Source: Caldithrix abyssi DSM 13497 (GTDB lineage Bacteria; Calditrichota; Calditrichia; Calditrichales; Calditrichaceae). Taken from it: DNA of 64,000 nt. The stretch lies in the NCBI RefSeq assembly GCF_001886815.1, contig NZ_CP018099.1:4586501-4650500 (forward strand), in the 5' to 3' direction. The notes under the pieces are model-generated. The model was not told the DNA's origin, made no database searches, and saw nothing but the letters and a program-made list of their open reading frames with translations. Below are positions 2,331 to 61,744 of the stretch, piece by piece; positions within the stretch are counted from its first letter, which is position 1; each line of letters begins with the position of its first letter. The position numbers and the translations under genes were made by a program.

Positions 2331-2713
2331 GATCGTCCCCTCTCATCTTTATAAGTTGCGCTTTAAAGTAAAAAACGGTTTGGCCAGCGTAAACCTCATT
2401 CGTCACAATACCCCCCGTTAAAATCAAGATTAATCAGGTTTTACTTACTGCCAATATTCCAAATTCAACCGATTCCATTTTCCAACCGGTAGAAAAAGAT
2501 GGCGGCAAGCTTCAATGGCAGTAAAGTTGCCATTATTTGCTCGCCACGTCAAAGTACAAACCGCTGATTGGGCCCGGGGCGCTACCCCTGGCCCCACCTT
2601 ATTAAACAAAACATTCTTTCAACCCTACGCCCTGTCCCGGCCGAAGGACTATTGTTAAATGTCCGTAAATTTTCTACATTGCTCGGAAGGAAGTTTTAAA
2701 GATCAGAAAGTGA
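2331..2713. other. Divergent intergenic region, REP-like palindrome
   Basis: This 383-bp gap separates the minus-strand secreted protein from ribD, so promoters for both should lie here. The only clear structure is the GC-rich palindrome at 2570-2595. I looked for the conserved FMN-riboswitch boxes ahead of ribD and did not find them. Confidence 0.6.
2570..2595. repeat. GC-rich REP-like palindrome, second copy
   Basis: GGGCCCGGGG, then CGCTA, then CCCCTGGCCC; the arms pair with one mismatch. The core GGCCCGGGGCGCT is identical to the copy at 61-83. Confidence 0.5.
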
Positions 2714-3811
2714 ATGCCGCAAATGTTCAGCCAATTTGACAAAAAGATGATGCGCCGCTGTTTTACCCTGGCGCGTAAAGGGCGTTTTAAAGTTCGGCCC
2801 AATCCCATGGTGGGCGCCGTGCTGGTAAAAAACGGCCGCGTCATTGGCGAGGGCTACCACCGCTACTTTGGCGGGCCGCATGCCGAGGTGGAGGCCTTCC
2901 AAAACGCCACAGAAGATCCTACCGGCGCCACCCTTTATTGTAATCTGGAACCCTGTTGCCACGCCAATAAAAAAACACCGCCCTGCACCCCGCTGGTCAT
3001 CAGCAAAAAAGTAGCGCGCGTGGTAGTGGCTAATATTGATCCCAATCCCGATGTGAGCGGCAAAGGGTTGCAACAAATGCGTGAGGCGGGCATTCAGGTA
3101 GAATCCGGGCTGCTGCAAGAAGAGGGCGCGGAGCTGAACAGGGTTTTCTTTTTAAATATGAAAGAGAACCGACCGTTTATTACCTTAAAAATTGCCCGCT
3201 CGCTGGATGGATTTATTTCTGAAAGCAGAGATAAACAAACCTGGCTCACTTCAGAAAAGGCCATAAAATTTGTTCACCGCCTGCGCGCAGCACATCAGGC
3301 CGTGCTGGTGGGCGCCGGAACCGTCAGAGCCGATGATCCGCAACTTACCGTACGCATGGCGCGCGGCCCCCAGCCGTTGCGCGTGGCGCTAAGCGCATCG
3401 CTTATTTTTTCTGACCGGGCGCAAATCTTTACCGATCGATTTCGGGACAAAACCCTGATCATTACCACCCAGCAGGCCGACAAAGAAAAAATCGAACAAC
3501 TACTCGGCAAAGGCGTTCGCGTTGAATCAGCGCCTGATTTGACTAACGGAAACATAAATCTGCGATTGTTGCTGGAAATATTGTGGCAAAAATTCAAAAT
3601 CGGCTCCCTACTGGTCGAGGGCGGCCAGCAGATTTTTACGAATTTTTTGAATGAACGGTTATTAGACGAATTGATTTTAATCGAAACCCCGGTTTTGCTG
3701 GGCCAGGGTTTGCCGGCGTTTGATCGCCTGCGCGGTCATTTTCTACAATTAAAAACGATTAAAAAGTTAGGGCCAGACGTGGCCATCATTTACCGTAAAA
3801 AAGAAAGATGA
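2714..3811 (+). CDS. ribD: Bifunctional diaminohydroxyphosphoribosylaminopyrimidine deaminase / reductase
   Basis: 365 residues, usual length for RibD. It catalyses two consecutive riboflavin-pathway steps: deamination of the GTP-derived pyrimidine and NADPH-dependent reduction of the ribosyl side chain. The N-terminal cytidine-deaminase-like domain (1-145) shows the zinc site H56-A-E58 and the C81-C82...C91 cluster (EPCCH ... PPC). The C-terminal reductase domain (about 150-365) carries KIARSLDGF, VGAGTVRADDPQLT and LLVEGGQ. First gene of ribD-ribE-ribBA-ribH. The ATG at 2714 has only a weak Shine-Dalgarno; GGAAGGAAG lies about 20 bp upstream, and a second in-frame ATG exists at residue 4. 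Confidence 0.95.
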   Translation: MPQMFSQFDKKMMRRCFTLARKGRFKVRPNPMVGAVLVKNGRVIGEGYHRYFGGPHAEVEAFQNATEDPTGATLYCNLEPCCHANKKTPPCTPLVISKKVARVVVANIDPNPDVSGKGLQQMREAGIQVESGLLQEEGAELNRVFFLNMKENRPFITLKIARSLDGFISESRDKQTWLTSEKAIKFVHRLRAAHQAVLVGAGTVRADDPQLTVRMARGPQPLRVALSASLIFSDRAQIFTDRFRDKTLIITTQQADKEKIEQLLGKGVRVESAPDLTNGNINLRLLLEILWQKFKIGSLLVEGGQQIFTNFLNERLLDELILIETPVLLGQGLPAFDRLRGHFLQLKTIKKLGPDVAIIYRKKER

Positions 3812-3842
3812 CAATCGAACTTAAAATTACTAAATTTGGCTC

Positions 3843-4490
3843 ATGTTTACCGGATTAATCGAAGAAGTGGGAACACTGACCCACAGCAGATCAATAAACG
3901 GCGGGAAGCGATTGCTCGTTTCCGCCCAAAAAATTCTGGACGGCACGCGTGTGGATGATTCCATCGCTGTCAATGGCGTTTGTCTGACGGTTACGGAATT
4001 GACCGACGGCGGCTTTTGGGTGGATGCCGTGGGCGAGACTTTGAACAAAACGACCATTAAAAACTGGCGCCTTGGCGAGAAAGTGAACCTGGAACGAGCC
4101 TTGCGTTTAAGCGATCGGCTGGGCGGGCATCTGGTGCAGGGGCACGTAAACGCTGTGGGACGAACAACACGGCTGGAAAAAATGGGCGAGAACTACTGGT
4201 GGGAGGTAGAAGTACCGCAGACGTTGGTGAAGTACGTCATTGCCGAAGGTTCCATCGCTCTGGATGGCATCAGTCTGACGGTGGCCCGCTTAAATGGGAA
4301 CAGAGTCGGCCTTTCGATCATTCCACATACTTACCGCCATACCGCCCTGCGCTTTCATCAGGTGGGCGCGATGGTGAATATCGAGGTTGATGTCATTGCC
4401 CGCTATGTGGAGCGACTGCTGCAGTTTGATAATAAAAACGGCGGCACAGGCGGGCTTTCTGAAGACTGGCTAAAAAGGATGGGCTTTTAA
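3843..4490 (+). CDS. ribE: Riboflavin synthase, alpha subunit
   Basis: 215 residues, typical length. Dismutates two 6,7-dimethyl-8-ribityllumazine molecules into riboflavin plus the pyrimidine substrate of RibH. Two homologous lumazine-binding barrels are visible: MFTGLIEEVG opens the first, with VNGVCLTVTEL; the second repeats it with GHLVQGHVNAVG and LDGISLTVARL. The gene lies 31 bp after ribD. It is separated from ribBA by 327 bp that contain a MITE-like insertion. Confidence 0.95.
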   Translation: MFTGLIEEVGTLTHSRSINGGKRLLVSAQKILDGTRVDDSIAVNGVCLTVTELTDGGFWVDAVGETLNKTTIKNWRLGEKVNLERALRLSDRLGGHLVQGHVNAVGRTTRLEKMGENYWWEVEVPQTLVKYVIAEGSIALDGISLTVARLNGNRVGLSIIPHTYRHTALRFHQVGAMVNIEVDVIARYVERLLQFDNKNGGTGGLSEDWLKRMGF

Positions 4491-4520
4491 ATTTCTTTTT
4501 CGGGCCGAAACAGAAGTCGG

Positions 4521-4540
4521 GCGCCGGGGCGCATTTTTTT
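4521..4540 (+). terminator. Possible intrinsic terminator after ribE
   Basis: GCGCCGGGGCGC followed by ATTTTTTT. The palindrome is short (4-5 bp arms), so termination would be weak; it could attenuate ribBA-ribH relative to ribD-ribE. Confidence 0.4.
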
Positions 4541-4714
4541 GGGGTGTCTCAAAAGCGAAATTAAATGCATGATTATTTAAAATCATGGGAAATCTTACAT
4601 TAGCCCTCACCCCCTGCCCACCTCTCCTGAAAATCGGGAGAGGGGGAATTAAAGGGGGTGAGGGAAAGAAGAAATTTATAAAAATACATTGTCTTTGACT
4701 TTTGGGACAGTCCC
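4541..4714. mobile_element. MITE-like element with IS1182-type ends
   Basis: 174 bp without a gene. The right end, read inward, is GGGACTGTCCCAAAAGTC; the IS at 59737-61744 has GGGGCTGTCCCAAAAGTC at its right end, 17 of 18 identical. The left end GGGGTGTCTCAAAAG is a diverged version of the same terminal repeat. The interior carries a REP-like palindrome (4604-4664). This fits a non-autonomous derivative mobilised by the IS1182-like transposase, or an IS remnant, inserted between ribE and ribBA. Confidence 0.65.
4604..4664. repeat. REP-like nested palindrome inside the MITE
   Basis: Outer arms CCCTCACCCCC (4604-4614) and GGGGGTGAGGG (4654-4664) are perfect complements; inner arms CCTCTCC (4621-4627) and GGAGAGG (4637-4643) form a second stem. 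The CCCTCACCCCC...CTCTCC pattern is a dispersed palindrome type known from many bacterial genomes. Confidence 0.65.
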
Positions 4715-4817
4715 TAAAAACATAAAAAAATTTAAGAGCGGGGCGTAAAAGCGATCTCAGGAAAACCGCTAAAAAACCTTAATGGTTTGAAATGAAAATC
4801 AAATTCAGGAATAAGCA

Positions 4818-6044
4818 ATGAACGAAGAGATAAAATTCAATACCATAGAAGAGGCTATCGAAGACATTCGTAACGGCAAAATGGTGGTGGTGGTGGACGA
4901 CCGCGATCGCGAAAACGAAGGCGATTTAATCATGGCCTCCGAGCTGGTCCGTCCGGAAGATGTAAATTTCATAACGCGTGAAGCGCGGGGCATGCTCTGC
5001 ATTTCCATCACCGAGGAACGAGCGCGCGAACTCGATCTTGATTTTATGGTGCCTGATAATGACAACTCGTCCAAACATCAAACACCGTTTACCGTAAGCG
5101 TGGATGCCAGGCACGGTACAACAACGGGCATTTCGGCTTACGACCGCGCGCACACCATTCGCGTCATTATCGATCCAGCCACCAGACCAACAGACCTGGC
5201 CCGGCCGGGACACATCTTTCCATTAATTGCTAAACGAGGCGGCGTGTTGCGTCGCGCCGGCCACACAGAAGCGGCCATGGACCTGGCGCGTCTGGCCGGT
5301 TTAAAACCCTCCGGCATTTTATGTGAAATCATGGCCGCCGACGGCACCATGGCCCGCGGAAAAGAGCTAAAAGCGTTCACCCAAAAACACAACTTAAAAA
5401 TCATTACCATTGCCGATCTGATCGAATACCGACGTAAGCGGGAAAAATTCGTGCGGCGACGGGTGGTGGTCGATTTGCCCACCAGGTATGGTCAGTTTAA
5501 ACTCTATCTTTATGAGAATACCCTGAACACCTACGAGCACCATGTGGCGCTGGTTAAAGGCGCCGTTGCCGACGGAAAGCCCACGCTGGTGCGTGTACAT
5601 TCTGAGTGTTTAACCGGCGATGTGTTTGGTTCCAAGCGCTGCGATTGCGGCGATCAGCTGGCCGCTGCCCTGCAAATGATCGAAAAAGAGGGGCGCGGCG
5701 TGCTGCTCTACATGCGCCAGGAAGGGCGTGGAATCGGTCTGGTGAACAAATTGTTGGCCTACGCCCTGCAGGAACAGGGTAAAGACACCGTGGAAGCCAA
5801 TGAAGCGCTGGGCTTTAAGCCGGATTTGCGCGATTACGGCATTGGCGCGCAAATTCTAAAGGACCTGGGATTGAGAAAAATCCGCCTGATGACCAACAAT
5901 CCAAAAAAAATCGTCGGATTAAAAGGCTACGATCTGGAAGTGGTCGAACGCGTGCCCCTCGAAATTTGCCCGAACGAGGTAAATGAATTCTACCTGAAGA
6001 CCAAAAGAGATAAATTAGGCCATTTATTTTTAAAAGATAAGTAG
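4818..6044 (+). CDS. ribBA: 3,4-dihydroxy-2-butanone-4-phosphate synthase / GTP cyclohydrolase II
   Basis: 408 residues, the usual length of the fused enzyme. The N-terminal half (about 1-205) makes 3,4-dihydroxy-2-butanone 4-phosphate from ribulose 5-phosphate: [31 protein letters not shown] and GILCEI are visible. The C-terminal half (about 210-400) opens the imidazole ring of [21 protein letters not shown] supplies the zinc cysteines and [10 protein letters not shown] the catalytic loop, with NNPKK near the end. It supplies both branches of the pathway, feeding RibD and RibH. Start supported by AGGAATAAG. Confidence 0.96.
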
Positions 6045-6066
6045 TTATATTTAGAGGAAAAGAACG

Positions 6067-6528
6067 ATGCAGAAGATCGAAGGAAAACTTTCGGCCAGAG
6101 GAAAAAAATTCGCGCTGGTGGTCAGCCGTTTTAATGAGTTTATCGGCAACAAACTGCTGGAAGGAGCGCTGGACTGCCTGACGCGTCACCACTGCGAAGA
6201 AGATGATATTACGGTGATCTGGGTGCCCGGTTCGTTTGAGATCCCTCTGGTGGCTAAAAAGCTGGCTAAAACCGGAAAGTACGACGGGGTTATTTGCCTG
6301 GGAGCGGTGATTCGCGGCGCTACCCCTCACTTTGACTATGTGGCGGCCGAGGTCTCCAAAGGCATTGCGCACACCGCCCTGGAAACCGAAGTGCCCGTTA
6401 TTTTCGGCATTATCACCAGCGACACCATCGAACAGGCCATTGAACGCGCCGGAACCAAGGCCGGCAACAAAGGCTGGGATGCGGCCCTGGCAGCCATCGA
6501 AATGGCCGATCTGATGAGCAAACTATAA
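6067..6528 (+). CDS. ribH: 6,7-dimethyl-8-ribityllumazine synthase
   Basis: 153 residues, typical. Condenses the pyrimidine product of the RibD branch with 3,4-dihydroxy-2-butanone 4-phosphate to form lumazine, the substrate of RibE. Family motifs: VSRFNEFI near residue 20, VPGSFEIPL near 60, [16 protein letters not shown] near 80-95, and a C-terminal [15 protein letters not shown] helix. It lies 22 bp after ribBA with AGAGGAAAAG upstream. It is probably assembled as the icosahedral or pentameric lumazine synthase. Confidence 0.96.
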
Positions 6529-6556
6529 AATAAAACTAATTTTGAGGAGCGAAACC

Positions 6557-8938
6557 GTGACGAGACCGCTTTTAATTCTTTTGTTTGTCTTTAAGGCCTT
6601 AACGGCCCAGGGAGTGGGCGACTGGCAAACGTTAACCTACATGAACAACATTAACGGCCTGATCGCAGACGGAAACCTCCTGTGGGCGGTTTCGGACGGC
6701 GGTCTGTTTAATTATGATGTTCAATCGACTGAAAGCAAAAAGTTTACCAATACCGACGGTTTGCGTTCCATTAAACTGAACAGAATCGTCCAGGACCAAT
6801 ACGGTCAAATAATCGTCGGCGGACAGGAAGGCCTCGTCCAGTATTACGATCCTTCGAAAAATACATGGCAGTACCAGTACGCTCTTGAGGGAAATAATAT
6901 CAACCATATTTTCACCAAGCAGGACACCCTCTGGGTTTGCGCCGAAAAGGGCGTCGGCGTTTTTGTGTACGACGGCGCGGAATATGTTTTCAAAGACTTT
7001 TTTCGCAACTTTCCGCTAACCGTAGAAAACATCTTTGCCAGCGCCGTATTTGCCGGACAAATCTGGTTGGGAACCGACAAAGGACTGCTCAGCGCGCCTT
7101 CGGATTTCGGCCGCTTTCCCATCAACGATCCGCAGCGCTGGCAGACCTTCGGCACAACACAGGGTCTGCCCTCTAATGGTATCCGCGCCCTTTTGCCCAC
7201 GGAAGATAAACTGTGGGTCGGAACGTACGCCGGACTGGCCTATGTGGACAAACAAAAAAATATCGTCACGGTAAATAACTGGTGGAAAAACGATCAAAAC
7301 GAATATCAGCCGGTGGAATATCTTGTGGCAGACGCGGCAAACGGCGTGATCTATCCCGCCTTTTCTGTTTTTATTACGCGCTACACCCTGAGCGCAGGTT
7401 ACCAGGTGCTTAAAACTTACAAATTTAAAATTCAGGGCCTGGCCATCGATGGAACGGGGCAGTTGTGGGCTGCCTTGAAGAACAATGGCATTAAAAATCT
7501 GGATGACCTTCATATTAAACTGGATGGCCCTCCATCCAATTTAATACGCACGGTTTTTAAAGATCACCGAAAAAATATCTGGGCTTCCCCCAGTCGTCCC
7601 AAAATTATTTTGCAGGATGGCATTTATGTGCACAATGGAGAGCTCTGGCAAAAATGGACGTTCAGAGGGCCTTACTGGCAAACCGTAAATAATGTGGATG
7701 TGATTTACGAAGATCGCTTCAATAATTTGTGGTTCGGAACCTGGGGCGGCGGCGTAATGGTAATTACGTCCTCCAATGATACCGTTTTTTTTCATTCGCA
7801 CGACCTGCCGGGGAGTCTGGAAATCTCTGACATTCAAGAAACCAGAGTCATTGATCCAGCGAAGTACGCCATTTATCGGGACTTTTTTAAGGGAGTAGTG
7901 ATAGATGAAAATTATGAAGTTATTACGGCTATAAAAGAAGGGCCACGAGGACGTTTGTGGTTCGCTAATTACTGGGCCGCCAACGGGAATTTGTTAGCCG
8001 TGGCCCCTTACGAAGAAAATGGCTTCGTTTCGCTGGATAAAAATAAATGGATCTATTTTGGCGCTTCCGATGGCATTGTGGCCAAGGAAGGGGGCGTCCT
8101 CTGTATCGAGTTCGATAACTTTGCCAACCGCGTGTATATTGGAACCCTGTCGAACGGCGTGTTTATTCTGGATTATGGAAATTCAGTGGAAAACAAAGCG
8201 GACGACCGCCTGTATCAGTTAACCATCCAGGATAATCTGTTTAGCAATACAGTTTTTAGCCTGGCCATGGATCAGGACGGCGTGCTGTGGATCGGCACGG
8301 CAGCCGGTCTGAATTCCTTTGACGGGCTGCGCGTGTATAAACATGTGGGCGATGATCTGGGATTGAGCGGGCCGCTGGAAAACGAAATCCACCATATTCT
8401 GGTCGATGCGTCTAATAACAAATGGTTTTCCACCACAGGCGGATTGAGTCTTTTACGCGGCGATCGAAGTCCCTGGGACACAAAAGGCTGGTTGGGCTAC
8501 AACAGAACCAACAGTTTTTTAGTTGACGATAATGTGCAATGTGTTTACCTTGATGAAGACAACAATGAGGCGCTCATTGCCACGGAAGGCGGATTGTCCG
8601 TGTATCGCGGACCTTTTGCAGAGATCGAAGAGCAATTTACCAAAACCCCGGCAGGGCCCAACCCTTACATTCTTGAAGCCGGTTCACCAAAATTTGTCAT
8701 TAAAAACCTGATGTTTAATTCCACCGTAAAAATTTTAAACATTAATGGTAAACTGGTTCGGGAATTGACGCCCAAAACCCTGCTGAAAGACGGCACCCTG
8801 GCCGTTGACGGCGGAAGAGCCTACTGGGACGGCCTGGATGCGACTGGAAATAGAGTTGCTTCTGGCATATATTTATTCCTGGCAATTTCAGAAGAAGGGA
8901 AAACCATATCCGGTAAAATCGCGGTAATTCGAAAGTAG
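6557..8938 (+). CDS. Secreted two-component-regulator-type beta-propeller protein with C-terminal sorting-like domain
   Basis: 793 residues from a GTG start chosen because GAGGAGC lies 6 bp upstream; a longer TTG reading would include the Shine-Dalgarno itself. Signal peptide about 1-17 (PLLILLFVFKALTAQ). Many Reg_prop-type blades follow: LWAVSDGGLFNYD, IIVGGQEGLVQY, LWVGTYAGLAYVD, LWFGTWGGGVMV, LWIGTAAGLNSFD. In the family these form two seven-bladed propellers fused to histidine kinases; here no kinase follows. The C-terminal about 85 residues (GKLVRELTPK..., YWDGLDATGNRVASGIYLF) are a FlgD/T9SS-type Ig-like domain. Probably a PorZ-like surface protein; PorZ has this architecture, but I cannot confirm orthology. 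It stops 2 bp before recN. Confidence 0.75.
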   Translation: MTRPLLILLFVFKALTAQGVGDWQTLTYMNNINGLIADGNLLWAVSDGGLFNYDVQSTESKKFTNTDGLRSIKLNRIVQDQYGQIIVGGQEGLVQYYDPSKNTWQYQYALEGNNINHIFTKQDTLWVCAEKGVGVFVYDGAEYVFKDFFRNFPLTVENIFASAVFAGQIWLGTDKGLLSAPSDFGRFPINDPQRWQTFGTTQGLPSNGIRALLPTEDKLWVGTYAGLAYVDKQKNIVTVNNWWKNDQNEYQPVEYLVADAANGVIYPAFSVFITRYTLSAGYQVLKTYKFKIQGLAIDGTGQLWAALKNNGIKNLDDLHIKLDGPPSNLIRTVFKDHRKNIWASPSRPKIILQDGIYVHNGELWQKWTFRGPYWQTVNNVDVIYEDRFNNLWFGTWGGGVMVITSSNDTVFFHSHDLPGSLEISDIQETRVIDPAKYAIYRDFFKGVVIDENYEVITAIKEGPRGRLWFANYWAANGNLLAVAPYEENGFVSLDKNKWIYFGASDGIVAKEGGVLCIEFDNFANRVYIGTLSNGVFILDYGNSVENKADDRLYQLTIQDNLFSNTVFSLAMDQDGVLWIGTAAGLNSFDGLRVYKHVGDDLGLSGPLENEIHHILVDASNNKWFSTTGGLSLLRGDRSPWDTKGWLGYNRTNSFLVDDNVQCVYLDEDNNEALIATEGGLSVYRGPFAEIEEQFTKTPAGPNPYILEAGSPKFVIKNLMFNSTVKILNINGKLVRELTPKTLLKDGTLAVDGGRAYWDGLDATGNRVASGIYLFLAISEEGKTISGKIAVIRK

Positions 8939-59736: not shown

Positions 59737-61744
59737 GGGGCTGTCCCAAAAGTAAATCAAGATGTATAAATATGCAGGTTTTTAAATATAATTTTATTGG
59801 TAAATGTGATACGAAATTATGGAAAAGGTAAAAGATTTCAACAAAAAAACATGAATAAAAACAAGATTTAAATTGGTTCTATTTATTGTCTTTAGCACAT
59901 AAAATAACTTGCATTAATAGTTTGAAAATATTAAATTTAAAATAAAAACCATGAAGCCAAAACGTTGTCGGAAAATCCCATTTAAAACTACCGATCAAAA
60001 CCAACTTACTATTCTTCCGCCTTCATTAGATGAGCTCATAGAACCCAATCATATGGTTCGGTTTATCAATGCCATCATAGACAAGATGGATATTGATTTT
60101 TTAATTAAAGAATACAAAGGAGGCGGTCGGGCCGCGTATCATCCGCGGATGCTATTAAAAGTAGTCATTTATGCCTATACGCAGAAGATATTTACTTCGC
60201 GCCAGATAGCTAAGGCCTTAAGAGAGAATATTCATTTCATGTGGTTATCAGGGAACAGTCGTCCGGATTTTAGGACGATAAATCGTTTTCGTTCATCACG
60301 ATTGAAGGGAAAAATAGAGGAAGTATTCACCTATGTAGTTGAGCAATTATTGGAGTTGGGCTATATAGGATTAAATGATCTTTTTATAGACGGGAGCAAA
60401 TTTCAGGCGAATGCGAATAAATACAAGGCAGTCTGGAAGAAGAATGTAGACCGTTACCAGAGAGTACTTCAAGAGAAGCTAAAGGAATTACTAAAGAAGA
60501 TAGATAGCGAGAATGCTTTAGAGAATCGTTTATACGGTAATAAAGATTTAGGAGAATTAGGAGAGGATGTTACTTTAAGCTCTAATCAGATTGAACAAAT
60601 AGTTGATATATTGAATGAGCGGTTAAAAAAGGAACCGGACAATAAGGAATTAAAGAGAGCAAAAAATAAAATAGAGAAGGATTATTTACCGCGCCAACGT
60701 AAATATGAAAAGCAACGAAAGCTTCTAAATGGTAGGAATAGCTATAGCCAGACGGACCCGGATGCTACCTTTATGAGTAAGAAGCGGGATCATCATAATA
60801 ATACGGATTTGCTTCCGAGTTATAATGTTCAGGTAGGAAGTGAGAATCAATTTATAGTGAATTATACGATAAATCAGAACGCGAATGATAGCGTATTATT
60901 AAAGCCCTTTATGGAGTCATACAAGCGTTGTTATGGTAGGCAACCAAATCGAGTAATAGGCGATGCAGGCTATGGAAGTGAGGAGAATTATGCATATTTG
61001 GAATCAGAAGGTGTAGAAGCTTATATCAAATACAGTAGTTATTACAAAGAGCAAAAGAAGTCATACAAAGAGAATCCTTTTTTGATAGATAACATGCGGT
61101 ATGATAGTGAATTAGATCGCTATGAATGTCCTGCCGGTCGGTATTTAGAATATGTTGGAGAACAGGAAAGTGTTACGTCGACGGGTTTTAAAGTAAAGCA
61201 TCGTATTTACCGTAGTGAGAGTTGTGAAGGCTGTGTATTGAAAGAGAAGTGCTACAAGGGCCAGACTGCACGTGTTGTTAGAGTAAATGTCATGCTTAAT
61301 GATTATAAAAAGCAGGTTCGTTCTCGATTGAATACGGAAGAAGGAAGAAGATTAATCAGCAAACGAGGTTCGGAGATAGAAACAATTTTTGGACAAATAA
61401 AGCATAATCTAGGAATAAGGGGCTTTTTATTAAGAGGATTAGAGAAAGTAAAAACAGAATTTGGTATAATAGCAGTAGCGTATAATTTAAAAAAGATGTT
61501 TAATCAGATGAAAGAGTACGGTTTAGTTAACGAGATGTATAAGTATAGCGCTAACATCTTTTTTAATTTAAACCGGGCAAGCCAGTGTCAAAATTTAGGC
61601 CCAAAAAATACCATTTTAAAATCGTTAGAGCGGTTTTTTATAGAAATTAAGGAAAAAATAGTTGTTAAATATTCATCTTGTCTCTTCAACGCCAAAATAT
61701 GTTTTGTATAAAAATTTACTTTCATCGACTTTTGGGACAGCCCC
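59737..61744 (+). mobile_element. IS1182-like insertion sequence, intact
   Basis: 2008 bp bounded by perfect 17-bp terminal inverted repeats GGGGCTGTCCCAAAAGT (59737-59753) and ACTTTTGGGACAGCCCC (61728-61744). One complete transposase gene inside. Flanks read GGGGA and GAGTA, so no clear target duplication is visible. Base composition is AT-richer than the neighbours, consistent with recent arrival. Confidence 0.88.
59951..61711 (+). CDS. IS1182-family transposase (DDE type)
   Basis: 586 residues. N-terminal DUF772-like segment with PPSLDELIEPNHMVRFINAI and GGRAAYHPRMLLKVVIYAY, then FTSRQIAKALRENIHFMWL; DDE catalytic core includes DLFIDGSKFQAN, VIGDAGYGSEENY and the C-terminal RRLISKRGSEIETIFGQIKH. 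The last segment supplies the glutamate. The frame is uninterrupted, so it may be active. Weak ribosome-binding site (AAAATAAAAACC) before the ATG. Confidence 0.92.
   Translation: MKPKRCRKIPFKTTDQNQLTILPPSLDELIEPNHMVRFINAIIDKMDIDFLIKEYKGGGRAAYHPRMLLKVVIYAYTQKIFTSRQIAKALRENIHFMWLSGNSRPDFRTINRFRSSRLKGKIEEVFTYVVEQLLELGYIGLNDLFIDGSKFQANANKYKAVWKKNVDRYQRVLQEKLKELLKKIDSENALENRLYGNKDLGELGEDVTLSSNQIEQIVDILNERLKKEPDNKELKRAKNKIEKDYLPRQRKYEKQRKLLNGRNSYSQTDPDATFMSKKRDHHNNTDLLPSYNVQVGSENQFIVNYTINQNANDSVLLKPFMESYKRCYGRQPNRVIGDAGYGSEENYAYLESEGVEAYIKYSSYYKEQKKSYKENPFLIDNMRYDSELDRYECPAGRYLEYVGEQESVTSTGFKVKHRIYRSESCEGCVLKEKCYKGQTARVVRVNVMLNDYKKQVRSRLNTEEGRRLISKRGSEIETIFGQIKHNLGIRGFLLRGLEKVKTEFGIIAVAYNLKKMFNQMKEYGLVNEMYKYSANIFFNLNRASQCQNLGPKNTILKSLERFFIEIKEKIVVKYSSCLFNAKICFV

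Follow-up and report, generated by a model that had tools for sequence, protein, structure and literature searches.

An IS1182-type MITE between ribE and ribBA of Caldithrix abyssi belongs to a family that appears to insert by replacing hairpins

The DNA analysed here (the window) is a stretch of 64,000 nucleotides from Caldithrix abyssi DSM 13497, positions 4586501-4650500 of a genome of 4,978,541 bases in a single contig. It carries a rib operon of four genes (ribD, ribE, ribBA and ribH, all four names being backed by Pfam) in which a short repeated element lies between ribE and ribBA (Table 1). An earlier note on this DNA had described an otherwise compact operon with a single large gap, and this description is accurate: ribE ends at 4490 and ribBA begins at 4818, leaving 327 bp between them, while 31 bp separate ribD from ribE and 22 bp separate ribBA from ribH. 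The same note had assigned positions 4541-4714 of the gap to a 174-bp MITE with IS1182-type ends. The place of the element is right and its start is one base late, because the preceding base is a G in 35 of the 36 full-length copies and completes the 16-bp terminal repeat; here this base is a T, and the element spans 4540-4714 (175 bp). Its right end agrees with the IS elsewhere in the window at 17 of 18 bases as claimed, or 15 of 16 over the terminal repeat, and its left end is diverged as claimed, with 3 mismatches to the IS in 16 positions. Within the MITE there is no ORF of 60 or more amino acids.

Table 1. Features of the ribE-ribBA junction and of the probable partner IS (window coordinates)
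Feature	Position	Strand	Remarks
ribE, riboflavin synthase (Lum_binding)	3843-4490	+	upstream of MITE
Spacer, ribE to MITE	4491-4539	+	49 bp, single copy; GCGC(CGGG)GCGC stem, T run at end
MITE	4540-4714	+	175 bp; among 36 full-length genomic copies read
Left terminal repeat of MITE	4540-4555	+	13 of 16 as in IS left end; first base T, G in 35 of 36 copies
Inner imperfect palindrome of MITE	4604-4664	+	CCCTCACCCCC ... GGGGGTGAGGG; break point of most interrupted family copies
Right terminal repeat of MITE	4699-4714	+	15 of 16 as in IS right end
Spacer, MITE to ribBA	4715-4817	+	103 bp, single copy
ribBA, DHBP synthase + GTP cyclohydrolase II	4818-6044	+	downstream of MITE
2,008-bp IS, probable autonomous partner	59737-61744	+	GGGGCTGTCCCAAAAG ... 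CTTTTGGGACAGCCCC
IS1182-family transposase	59951-61711	+	586 aa; inside the 2,008-bp IS

With window positions 4541-4714 as the query, a search of the source genome returned at least 40 places (best non-self E-value 7.3e-72), which excludes a chance match. Among the best 40 of 172 candidates, which were scored, 36 are full-length copies of ~175 bp; the other four fetched copies (L047 and L058-L060) are interrupted or partial and were omitted from the full-length alignment. The copy number is therefore a lower bound. The earlier note had proposed such a genome search and had held that finding no other copies would count against its reading, and the outcome is 36 full-length copies plus fragments. 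The loop of the inner hairpin (consensus 90-96) reads GATTTTC in 16 of the 36 copies and GAAAATC in 13, as if it had been flipped.

The probable autonomous partner of the MITE is the 2,008-bp IS in the window, of which the genome has eight intact copies and a ninth that is broken. Its perfect 16-bp ends are identical in all eight intact copies, and its transposase scores 447.3 bits against the IS1182 model NCBIfam NF033551 (cut-off 270) and contains the Pfam domains DUF772 and DDE_Tnp_1_6. The MITE consensus matches the IS at 16 of 16 positions of the right end and at 13 of 16 of the left, and on the right the two can be aligned without a gap over 38 bp. A second IS1182-like transposase of 532 aa (28-29% identity) was considered as the partner and rejected, as its conserved ends differ. 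The IS that encodes it (L078-L097) also lies within a palindrome, AATCCCGCCCGGG ... CCCGGGCGGGATT, suggesting that this element too may target hairpins.

The insertion between ribE and ribBA is thus short and multicopy, lacks a transposase ORF and has ends like those of an IS in the same genome. Judged by these features it is a MITE of a known family, and the identification in the earlier note is correct. Among 39 relatives (at most the best 20 candidates per genome) no full relative of the MITE was found; the partial matches, in four genomes, comprise the right 43 bp in one (G001) and pieces of the inner palindrome in three (G008, G021 and G022). These pieces come without the ends, and the palindrome is GC-rich, as might be expected if the element were a REP/ERIC-type palindromic repeat with no relation to an IS. 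We consider this extremely improbable given that the 16-bp terminal repeats are those of the IS, that the right ends align without a gap well beyond them, and that IS and MITE share both a target repeat and the hairpin loss described below.

To place the insertion among relatives, 15 genomes of the family were searched, including that of C. abyssi itself. A ribBA match was obtained in ten, and the ribE-ribBA junction was readable in nine relatives, in one of them (G003) on a contig that carries only the last codons of ribE. Read by eye, the junction is compact in eight of the nine, two of which are congeners, ranging from a 1-base overlap to 12 bp, and the 327-bp gap is therefore derived. Relatives with an equal gap, which the earlier note had named as evidence against an insertion, did not turn up, as the ninth relative, the congener G002, has 851 bp at this junction. 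That spacer (L099, 650-1500) consists largely of other dispersed repeats: matches to its own genome (68, the self match counted) cover approximately positions 5-46 and 320-808. Two species of the genus have an enlarged junction. The idea of an insertion into a compact operon thus holds insofar as the MITE lies where eight of the nine relatives have a compact junction, but of the 327 bp the MITE explains just 175. The remaining 152 bp (49 + 103) are single copy in the genome. Compared with the G002 spacer, the two flanks taken singly give p values of 0.04 and 0.02 and the joined flanks 0.054, and both flanks matched as well and collinearly in 1 of 1000 shuffles; this is no more than suggestive of homology between the two spacers. 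None of the junctions read provides a clear empty site for the ribE-ribBA copy.

The earlier note had proposed that termination or processing signals in the MITE may alter expression of the downstream genes, and nothing in the present analysis supports such signals. A U-tract after the inner hairpin is absent on either strand. Within 4491-4817 the scans scored neither a promoter-like site nor a terminator-like one of the intrinsic type, a GC-rich stem followed by a U-tract. Scans of the larger region 2400-6700 remain at about the level of shuffled sequence, with 4 hits versus 3.7 for promoters and 7 versus 7.1 for terminators. A weak GCGC stem outside the MITE precedes a T run at 4534-4540; the stem has 4 bp and falls under the threshold of five pairs in the terminator scan. 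Compensatory changes are likewise lacking, since in an alignment of 19 of the 36 full copies, all on the genome + strand, one of 47 pairs is changed on both sides and is located outside the inner hairpin. Neither the window nor ten rib loci yielded an Rfam match at gathering scores. With no Rfam match, one changed pair in 47 and scans close to shuffles with no site in the spacer, a reading of the element as a regulatory RNA is unsupported.

A broader version of this idea is co-option of the ribE-ribBA copy for regulation or processing, so that ribBA-ribH would be uncoupled from ribD-ribE. The predicted RNA fold across the MITE is very stable (z -5.2), the junction of the congener is enlarged as well and filled largely with dispersed repeats, and the weak stem and T run lie just 5′ of the MITE, all of which would suit such a role. 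However, the missing U-tract, the empty promoter and terminator scans of the spacer, the one paired change and the lack of an Rfam match in the window speak against it, as does the presence of other MITE copies in many unrelated intergenic places, and we regard co-option as unlikely. The ribE-ribBA copy is most likely a tolerated insertion, and its polar effect is, by inference, modest at most. The C. abyssi genome paper states that the organism is able to synthesise riboflavin (PMC5317091), so the operon presumably still works; the words 'MITE' and 'insertion sequence' do not occur in the available part of that paper's text (PMC5317091).

How members of the family insert can be examined at a dispersed repeat that serves as their target, in which AACTCATCCCCCAGCCC is followed by CTTCTCTTTAAAAAAGAGAAG and GGGCGTAAAT or a variant of it. 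Searching the genome for AACTCATCCCCCAGCCC at no more than one mismatch gave 52 sites, all of which were read; this search requires the left arm, and sites without it (L025 and L068) fall outside the count. The stem-loop is intact at 28 of the 52 sites, 16 are filled by the MITE or the IS, and eight are otherwise altered. All 16 filled sites are without the stem-loop, mostly with matched stumps and with no target duplication. A typical filled site has the form AGCCC-element-GGGC, in which the 21-nt upper stem-loop is gone and stumps of the stem are left on both sides. The window IS adjoins an intact hairpin rather than replacing one and was counted among the 28 intact sites. In one place (L203, 665-2633) the target repeat recurs in an array of five tandem units of 381 bp, and it also occurs in other pairs approximately 300-400 bp apart.

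The stumps themselves, read by eye, are mostly symmetrical. Sixteen full-length MITE copies are located in the repeat, and 15 of these sites are scorable, L049 being omitted as it lies in another palindrome for which there is no empty copy. Equal stumps are found at 12 of the 15 (L035, L040 and L055 with one extra junction base), and the stumps are unequal at three, by one base in L027 and L050 and by five in L037. The 2,008-bp IS behaves in the same way, with equal stumps at all three scorable sites, at which 4 bp (L073), 3 bp (L076/L077) or 0 bp (L068) of the stem are kept; in L068 the entire 29-nt stem-loop of the consensus is missing. A further IS site, L072, is not scorable since its right flank is inside a MITE.

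Together these data make it highly probable that a MITE reached the ribE-ribBA spacer with the help of the transposase that the 2,008-bp IS supplies in trans and that the family inserts by hairpin replacement. In such a model the 586-aa IS1182-family transposase would move the MITE in trans and would act on a palindrome that can fold into a stem-loop. The upper part of this stem-loop would be lost at the target, in an order of cutting and joining that we infer, and the element would end up between two stem stumps without a target duplication. The copy between ribE and ribBA would have arrived by hairpin replacement too. The model draws on what can be read in the genome sequence, namely the copies and their ends, the partner IS, the empty and filled targets, the loss of the stem-loop and the mostly matched stumps, with the loss deduced by comparing paralogous copies of the repeat rather than one locus before and after. 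As in IS1272-type insertion, the target repeat is an inverted repeat whose stem-loop is lost with no target duplication.

It could instead be that the MITE enters palindromic sites by ordinary transposition, and that the filled repeats had no stem-loop beforehand. Stem-loops can evidently be lost independently, as eight of the 52 sites are altered without containing an element. Yet among the loci examined there is no closed-up repeat that lacks both the stem-loop and an element, while 16 filled sites without a stem-loop stand against 28 unfilled sites with one, and the IS shows a like loss with differing amounts of stem kept. Prior absence of the stem-loops therefore seems to us quite improbable.

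At the 20 MITE sites outside the repeat the flanks pair over a mean of 2.80 contiguous bases (the best of three offsets), compared with 1.06 for re-paired flanks, and 0 of 5000 shuffles reached 2.80; a version with 21 sites gave 2.81. Four or more contiguous pairs are present at six of the 20 sites and fewer at the other 14, and some insertions may have used no clear hairpin, or may have lost all of one. The flanks of the ribE-ribBA copy form five pairs, offset by one and all A-T. None of the 36 copies is inside an ORF of more than 129 aa as judged by a crude ORF finder; for the gene context, nine sites at which the overlapping ORFs are all small were reassigned by eye. Neighbouring genes are convergent at 13 copies, divergent at three (p 0.02 for 13 versus 3) and in tandem at 20, including the ribE-ribBA copy. 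This context fits a preference for hairpins at the ends of genes.

The MITE itself contains a palindrome, and this is where other copies are most often broken. At 28 loci (L193-L202, L205-L220, L070 and L072) the MITE is interrupted, truncated or rearranged, and by eye 23 of them are broken inside the inner palindrome region, defined as consensus 76-113 in a range chosen after the data had been seen. These loci are not all independent, as seven have a partner in common and a single copy may be split between L205 and L216. The family's own IS is responsible at two of the 23 (L070 and L072) and different elements at others. In the seven copies with a common partner (L210, L212, L214 and L217-L220) one other conserved sequence is joined to the final 63-64 bp of the MITE, and it seems that one element replaced the hairpin of the MITE and then spread. 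We tentatively suggest, as a possibility that we hold to be less probable than not, that the MITE is a travelling landing pad which swaps a host hairpin for its own palindrome, each insertion regenerating a target. If this were true, hairpins would be a currency that renews itself and around which nests of mobile DNA build up.

The kind of MITE is known, and what sets the C. abyssi genome apart is that it displays the hairpin swap unusually clearly. With 28 intact and 16 filled copies of a repeat in one genome, the outcome of hairpin replacement can be viewed in countable form; the MITE is indicated to share this mode, and the extent of stem loss varies at one and the same target (0, 3 or 4 bp kept). 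The data also suggest how mobile DNA comes to take the place of noncoding hairpins, perhaps above all those at gene ends, and how a compact operon acquired part of a spacer. Among the papers listed on IS1182, IS1272 and MITEs, mostly open without subscription and judged by the opening of the abstract, no MITE inserting by hairpin replacement was found, which is weak evidence that such a MITE is new.

Related elements are found in other organisms. The exact 20-bp right end occurs at seven loci of three organisms in the genome collection, from which records of the source genome are possibly excluded. Elements of a Thermincola MAG (L148 and L150-L153) have this exact right end in common with the MITE and differ in their left end and interior. 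By eye L151 and L152 resemble short MITEs, and L151 contains an inner palindrome. In Methanosarcina acetivorans the MITEs related to ISMac2, an IS of the IS1182 family, are likewise short and multicopy with IS1182-type ends, being 160 and 169 bp long and present in 14 and 7 copies, but unlike the C. abyssi MITE they have repeats of 25-26 bp and a 4-bp duplication or none (PMC3852290); the parts of that paper dealing with them make no mention of hairpin replacement.

The closest parallel is IS1272/TnSha1 of staphylococci, as far as the available parts of the respective papers describe it. IS1272, which was assigned to the IS1182 family by Furi et al. 2016 (PMC4923244), has been described as inserting in a hairpin-replacing mode (Wan et al. 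2017, PMC5678879; Furi et al. 2016, PMC4923244). Like the C. abyssi elements it has 16-bp terminal repeats and uses inverted-repeat targets of differing sequence, from which the stem-loop is wholly or partly removed with no target duplication. In contrast to IS1272/TnSha1, the family described here includes a 175-bp derivative without a transposase, resides in an unrelated host, and has as its targets many copies of one dispersed repeat, empty and filled in the same genome.
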